A program made the translations under genes and the position numbers. Positions 48,012-54,408 of a stretch of 64,000 bases of DNA are shown piece after piece. Source of the DNA: Mesorhizobium loti (GTDB lineage Bacteria; Pseudomonadota; Alphaproteobacteria; Rhizobiales; Rhizobiaceae). Under the pieces are notes generated by a model that saw nothing but the letters and a program-made list of their open reading frames with translations, was not told the origin of the DNA and did no database searches. Position 1 is the stretch's first letter; each line of letters begins with the position of its first letter. The DNA is taken from NCBI GenBank assembly GCA_014189435.1, contig CP050293.1:2237001-2301000 (forward strand). Reading direction: 5' to 3'.

Positions 48012-51000
48012 TCAATGCAGACGGCCGCTGGCATGGGCCAGCATGGTGTAGACCTTGCCGGTGTCCGAGGTCAGGTAGGTCTGGGCCATGATGTTGTCGC
48101 GGTCGTTGCGCGAGACATCCTTGAGCAGCTTCTCGAAATCGTCGCAGTAGCGGTCGACGGCGGCGCGGAACTCGGCCTCCGCCTGATACTTGCGACGGAT
48201 CTCGTCGAACGTCTGCTGGCCCTTCAGCGTGTAGAGCCGCCTTGTGAACACGTCACGCTCGCCGCGCCGGTAGCGGTTCCACAACTCGATCGAAGCATCG
48301 TGGTCGATGGCCCGCGCGATGTCGACGGAGAGCGAGTTCAGCGATTCCACGACATGCAGGGGCGAGCGCTGGGCAGGGGCCGGGCGCGGTGCTTCAGCGG
48401 GCGCCACGGGAGCTGCCGACCTCAGGTCCTCGTCGTTCGATGCCGCGGTCAGCAGATCGCGCACCCAGCCGCCCTGAGGCGTGCGGGCGTTGGCGTCTGA
48501 ACGCTGGCGCGGTGCCGCCTCGGCCGGACGCTCAAGGTCGAGCGTGCCGCGCAATGCGGGGCCGCCCAAGGGCGCCTGAGGCGCGCGCAGCTCCGGCTGC
48601 GGAGCCGGTGCGCGACGCGGCGGCTCGGCAGCACGTGCGGCCGGCGCTTGCGGCGCCGGACGCAGATTGCGTGGCTCGGACCCATCGCCGCCACGGCCGG
48701 ACTTCGCAACGATGTCAGAAAGCTCCTTCAGGGCATTGATCTGCTCGGAAACGGCGCGGCGGATGGCCGAGGTCGATTCCTTGGCCTCTTCCGGCATCTC
48801 GATGACGCCCTTCTTGAGTTCGGCGCGGGTGAGGTCGAGCTCGCTCTTGATCGAGCCCGCTGTGCGCCGCATCTCCTCGGTCGCATCGGCGAAGCGCTTG
48901 GTTGCCGAATCGACGACGTCGGTGATGGCGTTGCGGATCTTGTCGGCCGACTCCATCGTCTTGCCTTCGGCGTTCTGCAGCGTCTGGCCGACGAGATTTT
49001 CGAACGAGCGCATGACCCTTTCGAGATCTTCCGACTTCTTGACCAGGCCGACGGCGAGGTCTTCGAGCGACGACTGCCGTTCGAGCGTGTGTTCGAGGTT
49101 GCTCTGGGCCGAGCTCAACAGGTCCGAAGCGCTGGACAGCAAGCGGCTGTGCTCGTCGAACTTGGTGGCGATCGACGCGACCTCGCGCAAGGTGGACGAC
49201 GACAGTTCCGTCAGCCTTGTCGTGTTCAGAATCGACCAGTCGCGCCGAGCTGGCGAAGGTCTGCGCGGCCTTCTCGGTGGTGGCGGCGAAGCTTTGCGTG
49301 CTGCCGCTCAGGCGTTCGTCGACCTGGCCGAGATTGACCGCGGCCTGCTCGATCAGCTGACCGAGCTGCGAGCTGGACTTGGTCATGCGGCCGATGAGGT
49401 CGGCGACGCTGTCGGACAGCGACGAGCGCGCGCCTTCGACCGCCGACAAGGTTTCGGCGGTGCGGCTGGCGAGCGCGTCGACAAGTGCGGCATTCTCGCT
49501 GCGCAGCTTCTCGGTGGCGCGTTCGGTGACCGCTTCCATGCTCTTTTGCAGTTCCGAGCCGCCCTGGGCGAAGCGCTCGACCAAAGGCCGTGCGGTTTCG
49601 TCGAGGATCTTCGACATTTCGGCCGAACGCGCCGCGAGCATGGTGTTGAGTTCGCGGGTGTTGGCGCCGATCGTCTTGGCGGCATCGTTGGTGCTCTGGC
49701 CGATATGCTGGCCAACCGCGGTGAAGGTCTCCGCGATGACATTGGCGCGCGAGACGAGTTGCGCCTCGGCATTCGACACCTGCTCGCTGAGCTTCTGGCC
49801 CATCGTCTCGGCCGTGTAGGCGAGGCGGTTCTCGACACCTGAGACCTGCTCTTCGACACGGGCCGCCGCGGCTGCCGCGCTCGATGCGAGCCGCTCGTCG
49901 GCGCCGGCAAGCGCCTGCTCGATTTCGCGGGCATGCACGGCCATTTCCTGGCCGGTCCGCCTTGCACGCTCGGCAACCCTCTGCTCGGTATCGGCAAAGG
50001 CACCGACGATGGTCTCGGCGTGCTCGCCGATCGTGGTGGTGCTGTTGGCGATGCGCGACACCAGGCGCTGATCCGCGTCGTCGAAGATGCGGCCGATTTC
50101 CGAGGCACGGCTCGACAATGCTTCCGAACCTTCGGCGATCCGCGAGACCAATTGCTGGTCGGCGGCGTCGAAGATGCGGCCAAGGTCCAATGCACGTGCG
50201 GCAAGCGCTTCGGCCGATTCGCCGATGCGCATGCCGAGCCGCTGGTCGGCGCCTTCGAAGTTGCGCAGGATGTCGCCGGCGCGCGCGGCCAGCGACTGGG
50301 CCGTTTCGATGGCGCGGGCGACCAGCTTCTGGTCGGCGGCATCGAACGTGCCCGCAATCTCGCTTGCACGAGCTGCCAGATGGTCGGCGGTGTCCTGGGC
50401 CCGGACGGTCAGCTGATCGGCGGTTTCCTGGGCACGGGCGGCGAGCTTCTGGTCCGCCACGTCGAAGGCGCCAGCGATCTGGCTTGCGCGAGCAGCCAGT
50501 TGATCGGCGGTTTCATGGGCGCGCGCCAGCAGCGAGCTGGAGGTGTCGTCCGCGCGGGCAAGCAAGGCGTTCGACGTATCTTCCGCACGGGCGTGCAGGC
50601 GACGATCAGCCTCCTCGAAGGTGCGGGCGATGTCTTCGGCACGCGTCAGCAGGGCGGCGGAGGTCTGCTCGGCGCGCTCGGCGATCTTGCGGTCGGCGTC
50701 GCTGAACGCGGCCCCGGCCTGCTCATGCAGCGTGCTGGTGACTTCCAGGACCTTTTCGCGCAGGGCGCCGGCAACAAAGACAGCGCTCTTCTCGAGCACG
50801 CTGCGGACGTTGTCGACACCTGTCGAAAGCGCACGCTCCATGGTTCCGGCGCGCTCTTCGATGATACCGGTCTGGCGGCTGAACGCCTGCTCGATCTTCT
50901 CGACATCGGCAGCGATCGCGTCGGAAATGCCGGTGCTCCTGGCGGCGATCTGATCGATATGGCCCGACAGCGAGCGGTCGACGTCCTTGCGGGCCTCGGC

Positions 51001-54000
51001 GAGCTTGCCGAGATCGTCTTCCAGCGCGCGGGTCAGCATATTGCGGCCTTCGGCCAGCTTGCCGACATGCCCGGCTACAACGCTGTCGATATCGCCACGG
51101 CTTTCGGTCAGCTTCTGCAGGTCGGCTTCAAGGGCGCGTTTGAGAATGTCGCGGCCCTCGGCCAGTTTCTCCACCTGACCAGCGACCAAGCCGTCGATGC
51201 TCGAACGGCTTTCGGCCAATTTGGCCAGATCGGCTTCCAGCGCGCGCTTGAGAACGTCGCGGCCTTCGGCGAGCTTCTCGACCTGGCCCGCGACCAGACC
51301 GTCGATGCTGGAGCGGCCCTCGGCCAGCTTGGCAAGATCGTCCTCGAGCGCCCTCGACAGGGTCGAGCGCTCCTGGACAAGCCTTTCCGCGTGGCTGTTG
51401 ACGAGGCCGCCGACGTTTTCGATGTCGGCCTCGAGTGACCGCGATAGTGTCGAACGATCCTGGGCGAGCCGTTCGGAATGGCTGTTGACCAAGCTGCTGA
51501 CGCTTGCGAGATCGTCCTCAAGCGCCTTGGATAGCGTCGAACGGTCCTGCACGAGCCGTTCGGAATGGCTGTTGACTAGGCCGTTGACGCTTTCGAGATC
51601 AGCCTCGAGCGCGCGGGCGAACTGTGCCCGGTCATCGACCAGTTTCTGCGACTGATCGGCAATGGTCCCCTTGATCGCATTGAGGTCGGCTTCCAGGGCC
51701 CGCCGCAAGATGTCGCGGCCCTCCGACAGCTTCTCGACCTGACCGGCAACCAGCCCATCGATGCTGGAGCGGCTGTCGGCAAGCTTGGCGAGGTCATCCT
51801 CAAGTGCTTTGGATAGAGCCGAGCGATCCTGAACCAGCCTGTTCATGTGGTCGGCAATGACGCTGTTCACATTCTGCAGGTCGGCTTCCAGGACCCGCGA
51901 AAGCTGCCCGCGATCCTCGGCCAGCTTTTCCGATTGGCTTGAGATGACGCCCCTGATCGTGCTCAGGTCGGATTCCAGCGCGCGCTTGAGAATGTCGCGG
52001 CCTTCCGCCAGCTTCTCGACCTGACCGGCGACCAGACCGTCAATGCTCGAACGGCTGTCGGCCAGTTTGGCAAGGTCGGCTTCAAGGGTCTGCGACAGCA
52101 GGCTGCGGTCTTCGGCCAACCGTCCCGAATGGCCTTCGATCAGATTGCGTATGCCGGACAGGTCGCTGTCGAGCGAATGGGAAAGCTGTGTGCGGTCCTC
52201 CACCAGCTTGGCGGAATGGGTTTCGATGAGGCTCTTGATGCCGATGATGTCGTTTTCCAACGCCTTGGCGAGCACGGCGCGGCCTTCGGCGATCTTCTCG
52301 ACCTGACCGGCGACCAGACCGTCGATGCCGGCGCGGCTGTCGGACAGTTTGCCGAGATCGGCCTCCAGGGCGCGCGACAGGATGTTGCGACCCTCGGCGA
52401 GCTTGCCGACGTGGCCTGCGACCATTTCATCAATGATCGTACGAGCTTGTACCAGTTTCCCGGAGTCTTCGTTCAAGGCAGTGGAGAGCCTGTTGCGGCC
52501 TTCTTCCAGCCTTTCGAGATGGCTGCCGAGCGATGCATCGATGGCCGCCCGCGATTCATTGACCTTGCGCAGATCCTCTTCGAGAGCGCGCGAGATCAGG
52601 TTGCGGCCTTCGGCCAGCTTCTGCACCTGGTTGGTCACCGCCGCATCGATGCCGGCGCGGCCCTCGGCGAACTTCGCCAGGTCGGCCTCCATGGCCGCGG
52701 CCATACGCTCGCGGCTTTCGGACAGTTTCCTGCTGTGGTTCTCGACAGCGTCCTCGATGCCGACGCGGGCGTCGGCGAGCCGCTGGATGTCGCTGTCGAA
52801 CGAACGCGACACGACGTGACGGGCGGCTTCCATGCGCCCGGCGAAGTCGCTGGCGCGGGCTTCGAGCATGGAGGAGGTCGAGGTGACGATGTCGGCCATG
52901 TCGGCGCCGATCTGGGTCTTGCCCTGATCGATCATCGCCGACAGCGTGTCCTTGCTCTCGGCAAAGGTATGGGCGATTTCGCGGGCGCGCTCGACCAGAG
53001 TCTCGTTGATCTGGCGGGCGCGGGCCTCGAGGGCCGCATTGAGCTTCTGCGTTCCGGTGTCCAGCGCCTCGGCGCGGGTCTGGAATTCGCTGATCAGCGC
53101 CTGGCCGCGTTCGGCGAGCGTGCGTTCGATGCCATTGAGGCTGGCCTCGAATTCGGAATTGAGGGTGCGCGCGGCGCCGCCAAGCAGCGACACCATGCCG
53201 GTGGTGCGATCGTCGAGCAGATCGGTCAACGACCGTGTCAGGCCGTCCGTGGTGTCCGTCAGCTTGGCAATGCGGGTGTCGAGAAGGCTGGCGAAGGCCT
53301 CGCCCGAGGTCGACAGCCGGTCGGTGATCGAATCGAGCCGGCCTTCCACCGAATCGAAGATCGACATCGAGCTTTCGTTGATGCGGTCGATCAGCGTGTC
53401 GCCGGAATTGGTGATCGTCATCGACAATTTGGTCGACGCATTGAGGATCGAGTCGCGGATGATGTCGGAGGCGGCGCCGATCTCGTCCTTCAGCGTCTCG
53501 TGCGCGCCGGTGATCGAGGCGCGGACGCGCTCGGCGTGGGTGACGACGGCTTCGCGCTCGCTGCCGAGGCCGTCGACCAGCGAACGGATGCGGGATTCAT
53601 TCTCGGAATACGAGCGTTCGATCTGGTTGACTTCGCTGTGGACCAGCGTCTCCAGCTCGACGGCGCGGGCAAGCGTGCGTTCGATGCCTTCGCCCATGGC
53701 CGCAACCTCGCGACGAACGGCCTGGCCGATCATCATGACGCGATCCTGGGCAAGGTTTTCCGGCTCGGTCAGGCGGAAGGCCACTTCGGTCATCGACTGA
53801 GCGGCGATGCGCATTTCCTGGGCGCGGCGAATCATTGCCGCAAAGGCCCAGAACAGGATGACGGGCACGATCGCCGCGACGACGAGGCCGATCAGCTCCG
53901 GACGGGCAAGGAACTGGTCGAGCGTGCGGATTCTCCAGATGCTCGGTCCGAAAAGCAGGTTGGCCAAGCCGCCGGCGCCGGCGAACCAGGCGAGCGAAAC

Positions 54001-54408
54001 GAAGGCAACGACCCAGTAAATGGTGTTCGAGGCACGCCTGTTGAGGCTGTGCAGAAGCGTCTTGTAGTCCTTCTGGCGATCGTCATTGGCAGGCGCGAAA
54101 CCCGCGGGCTGGGCGCCATTGCGTGGTTCCACGGGGCGCAACTCGGCAGGCTTGGCCTTAGGCGCGGGCTTTGCGGCTTGGTTCTGGGCCTGGCTCTGAG
54201 AGACTACGGACTCTGGTTTCTGATTGCGTCCCTCGCGTGCCAACTCGTCGGCTGCCTGGGATATCTGCGCTTCCAGATCCTCCATCGAAGCCGCGATGTC
54301 GAGGTCGCCGCTGCCGACATCATTGCCGAGGTCGATATCAAGCGCCTTTTCCAGTTCCCTGGCCACGTCGCTGTCGAGAGTTCTCGTCGTCGTTGGTTTC
54401 TTCGCCAT
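48012..54408 (-). CDS. Growth Pole Ring protein (GPR/RgsE-like) giant coiled-coil, frame broken near 49228
   Basis: The 6.4-kb reading gives about 2131 residues when joined across one extra base. The N-terminal region (1-125) is followed by two membrane helices (about 130-152 and 171-192). Long helical repeats follow, first of an LEADLAKL...AGQVEKLAEGRD type and then ADQKLVARA...LAARAGDI. The C-terminal domain ends LYTLKGQQTFDEI...LASDTGKVYT-like. This architecture matches the GPR protein of Agrobacterium and RgsE of Sinorhizobium, which form a ring at the growing pole and are needed for polar wall growth. The frame shifts at an extra A at 49228 (+ strand GTTCAGAATC where GTTCGAATC would restore frame). 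Downstream sequence reads perfectly in the other frame, so this is either a recent mutation or a sequencing error. Confidence 0.85.
50990..52790 (-). repeat. In-gene tandem repeats of 87 and 108 nt
   Basis: About 18 repeat units in the GPR-like gene encode 29- or 36-residue helices that differ by one extra heptad (KLAESRS-type). The DNA reuses near-identical stretches, for example GACCAGACCGTCGATGC-type runs. It is coding, not an independent repeat array. Confidence 0.8.

Follow-up and report, generated by a model that had tools for sequence, protein, structure and literature searches.

The window, i.e. the whole stretch of 64,000 nucleotides analysed here, belongs to a contig of 7.22 Mb, one of three that make up an 8.33-Mb genome, and its closest named relatives are Mesorhizobium. 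It carries a long gpr/rgsE-like gene that is split between two overlapping frames of the minus strand:

48715..54408, minus strand: N-terminal ORF of the split gpr/rgsE-like gene, 1,897 aa, out of frame after residue 1,727
48012..49226, minus strand: C-terminal frame of the split gene, open for 404 residues
49226..49229: break in the gene, one net surplus base relative to 102 of 102 alignable relative loci
49229..49233: GANTC site (CcrM-type motif) adjoining the break

The 1,897-aa ORF reads ASSARLVDS and then continues in arginine-rich, non-family sequence, as the sequence-only reading of this stretch had described. The family match ends at residue 1,727, and the out-of-frame tail runs for about 170 residues up to the stop. 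The same reading had proposed that without the A at 49228 family sequence runs on for some 400 residues, which agrees with the 404-residue frame and with alignments that place the surplus base at 49228. The break is not inside a homopolymer. The identity of the product to that of genome G021 is 81% before the break and 96% after it; hence, the pattern is not the product of chance.

The name GPR/RgsE follows from that reading and from the architecture of the protein, rather than from an alignment with Atu1348 or SMc00190. The total length is similar to that of GPR (Agrobacterium tumefaciens, Atu1348, 2,115 aa) and RgsE (Sinorhizobium meliloti, SMc00190, 2,089 aa), with which it shares a helix-rich middle and relatives across the order. 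A candidate PF01442 (apolipoprotein) match, at 1539-1711, has an E-value of 5e-22 and a score of 79 bits, which is below the 90-bit cut-off. Two hydrophobic stretches are visible by eye in the first 200 residues of the N-terminal ORF, and may correspond to the pair of transmembrane segments at the N-terminus of GPR/RgsE. Unlike both reference genes, the gene is split in the present assembly. Its middle part contains tandem arrays (window positions 50047-51612) with periods of 33, 87, 108 and 120 bases, and the number of repeats seems variable among relatives: the gene is present as a plus-strand ORF of 1,572-2,570 aa in 71 of 80 named loci (nine lack such an ORF, three of them being cut by contig ends).

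We compared the break with the same position in related strains. The site could be aligned in 102 of the 109 relative loci (L003-L111; the remaining seven gave no match over it), and all 102 are one base shorter than the window. These loci correspond to 80 distinct 61-base segments, some loci being one genome fetched twice. A 392-aa ORF of the C-terminal frame was matched in 145 of the 146 genomes of the genus, and among the matches listed it lies mostly within a single open frame of roughly 1,900-2,600 aa, as opposed to 431 aa in the window's own genome. The exact junction pattern was found in one of these 146 genomes, that of the window, although the pattern is strict and could miss variants. 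The shifted tail, used as a protein query, had no match among 1,079 candidates. This search is weak evidence: its companion query (residues 1-1720, 7,989 candidates scored) gave six matches, all with at most 51% identity, and did not list the close relatives already found with the C-terminal ORF. Among the assemblies aligned, the surplus base is thus private to the window's own.

Nine other fetched stretches carry the gene in two pieces. Two of them come from few-contig assemblies, with breaks that on base-by-base inspection are not at GANTC: a one-base loss in G056 (L215, near 7859) and a 19-base loss in G011 (L214, near 2862), the latter located between two short copies of GATCG. In the other seven (L216-L222) the pieces join in the long middle part, at reference positions from about residue 550 to about residue 1,420, and repeat misassembly is one possible reason for this.

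We then consider the frequency of such breaks in the assembly. We surveyed 864 kb (464 kb around the window and 400 kb more) at the protein level against the collinear stretch of genome G009. Breaks were called strong when each flank reached 41 residues and 85% identity and the shift was no larger than 4; G021 was surveyed for the first part only and without this filter. With the window's own assembly as the target (397 genes, 418 kb coding), there were 33 raw shifts, of which 12 were strong and internal and 21 were dropped by the filter. With G009 as the target (389 genes, 412 kb), there were 23 raw shifts, five strong and 18 dropped. The strong breaks of the window's assembly fall into two sets:

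Touching GANTC: rpoB, ilvD, a ppiD-like isomerase, pyrG, a circularly permuted ATP-grasp protein, eno and rplE
Without GANTC (five): cckA, an ntrY-like kinase and three others

GANTC is thus touched (in the reference) by seven of the 12 breaks when 0.13 are expected, as the motif takes up 1.1% of positions (binomial p = 1.6e-11). In the reverse test it is touched by none of the five strong G009 breaks, which are few events, and the comparison of seven of 12 with none of five gives a Fisher p = 0.044 on small numbers. The idea of a link with GANTC arose from the first part of the survey, where four of six strong breaks are at the motif; in the part fetched afterwards the proportion is three of six. 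The gpr break is outside the 12, being absent from the report against G009 and found against G021. The window contains four other raw shifts, all near gene starts and with weaker flanks, none of which passes the filter. A nucleotide-level survey (24, 21 and 18 flagged genes in the window's genome, G009 and G021, respectively) was dropped, since it mostly flagged misplaced starts and antisense ORFs. The adjacency of the surplus base to the GANTC site at 49229-49233 and the recurrence of breaks at this motif elsewhere in the assembly are both new relative to the sequence-only reading.

The identity of the broken genes is what decides between an error and a real mutation. Whole-genome searches found one copy each of rpoB, rplE, eno and pyrG, each split into two neighbouring pieces that are not in the same frame. 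These genes are indispensable. A cell in which all four were broken would not be viable, and these breaks are therefore errors. The gpr break resembles them in type and shares their motif, and is therefore most simply one more of them. We conclude that the frameshift is almost certainly a consensus error in the assembly, and that the gpr/rgsE-like gene is most likely intact in the organism itself, as it is in relatives. The split single-copy genes thus support the sequencing error that had been preferred from the sequence alone.

Two biological explanations of the split can be weighed against this evidence. The strain could have a real one-base insertion that truncates the GPR-like protein, with loss of its C-terminus. 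This would be consistent with the survival of S. meliloti after deletion of rgsE, with slow and aberrant growth (PMC7327166), and with the breaks of the gene in the few-contig assemblies G056 and G011, be these real or artefacts. Yet, the surplus base is private to one assembly and matches in kind and motif the breaks of single-copy essential genes, making a real insertion very unlikely. Alternatively, ribosomes could read across the junction by programmed frameshifting, giving a short and a long product. The single point in its favour is the pair of overlapping frames. However, no slippery heptamer was seen at the junction by direct reading, the surrounding RNA shows no unusual degree of structure (z = 0.70), the arrangement occurs in none of the alignable relatives, and rpoB, eno, pyrG and rplE would all require the same mechanism. 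We consider its probability to be negligible.

An assembly error could still be random, or the result of a homopolymer, with no link to methylation. Five of the 12 strong breaks are indeed without GANTC. Among these, cckA and the ntrY-like histidine kinase gene (contig C1 of the window's own assembly, G000, near 2312366 and near 2799366, the latter next to an A-run) are broken away from the motif, and a second type of error is therefore present in the assembly besides the one linked to GANTC. Also, rpoB differs by the loss of one base just beyond the motif, in a run of two As, which could be a common slip at a homopolymer. Nevertheless, seven breaks at GANTC greatly exceed the 0.13 expected and the gpr break is outside any homopolymer, so that we regard a random origin of the latter as unlikely.

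The breaks at GANTC have a preferred context: in six of eight (counting gpr) G009 has GATTC followed by G. In alignable DNA, the GATTCG sites of the reference show six insertions and two deletions in 172 sites when the window's assembly is the target, against one and one in 162 when G009 is. For all GANTC sites the counts are 12 insertions and five deletions in 534, against four and 11 in 533, the 11 deletions being partly mirror images of the insertions in the window's assembly. A count over all motifs, which is noisy and takes in non-coding DNA, places GANTC at the top of 16 motifs when the comparison is with G009 (9/336), but not when it is with G021 (4/264, compared with 10/296 for TTNAA). 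The preferred context hints that the assembly might carry a specific error signature, made of one-base insertions at CcrM sites and mostly at GATTC followed by G, a suggestion that we make tentatively.

CcrM methylates the adenine of GANTC. A search of the genome for the N6_N4 methyltransferase family gave a single match, whose best solved match is CcrM (6pbd, 4.8e-166), and which by sequence is a close relative of this enzyme. We thus propose that the cause is probably systematic miscalling at CcrM-methylated GANTC, where we infer the platform, the methylation of the sites and its causal role. The enzyme would methylate the adenine at GANTC sites, the methylated sites would give an altered signal in nanopore-type long reads, the basecaller would then add or drop a base in the motif or next to it, and a few per cent of GANTC sites would keep the miscall in the consensus.

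Several published observations bear on this proposal. In Rhizobium leguminosarum, 6mA occurs at GANTC (PMC8709438), and methylation-linked consensus errors have reportedly been described in nanopore bacterial assemblies (PMC10687267). Basecalls near methylated bases can fail, and in Brucella methylation accounts for 6.5% of errors (PMC12392509). In nanopore assemblies of Agrobacterium, most SNP errors are near likely methylated motifs, e.g. GANTC, and small indels are listed separately (PMC12710330). As in these two studies, we find errors near GANTC at a minority of sites in a CcrM-bearing bacterium of Rhizobiales type. Two differences stand out: the Brucella study has only two potential GANTC-related errors, and the Agrobacterium study ties methylated motifs mainly to substitutions, unlike the gene-splitting one-base indels of the present assembly. 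The latter difference slightly weakens the case for methylation as the cause. The literature searched contained no joint treatment of Mesorhizobium, nanopore sequencing and GANTC.

A true loss of the C-terminus, it had been remarked, would be striking given the role of GPR in polar growth. This is a fair point. In Agrobacterium, GPR assembles into a ring at the growing pole, and versions lacking 221 or 332 residues at the C-terminus failed to complement (PMC8262873). On the other hand, rgsE is dispensable in S. meliloti at the cost of slow growth. Since such a deletion mutant grows, gpr alone would not have revealed the error: a real break would be interesting but survivable, and it is the other genes that carry the conclusion. 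Biologically, the gpr break is ordinary, and should not be taken as a lost polar-growth function. If the rate of seven in 397 tested genes applied to the whole genome, breaks linked to GANTC would by extrapolation number on the order of one hundred. Core genes of this assembly contain false frameshifts, so its pseudogene calls need care. If the signature were general, false pseudogenes in published Rhizobiales assemblies would be recognisable from sequence alone.
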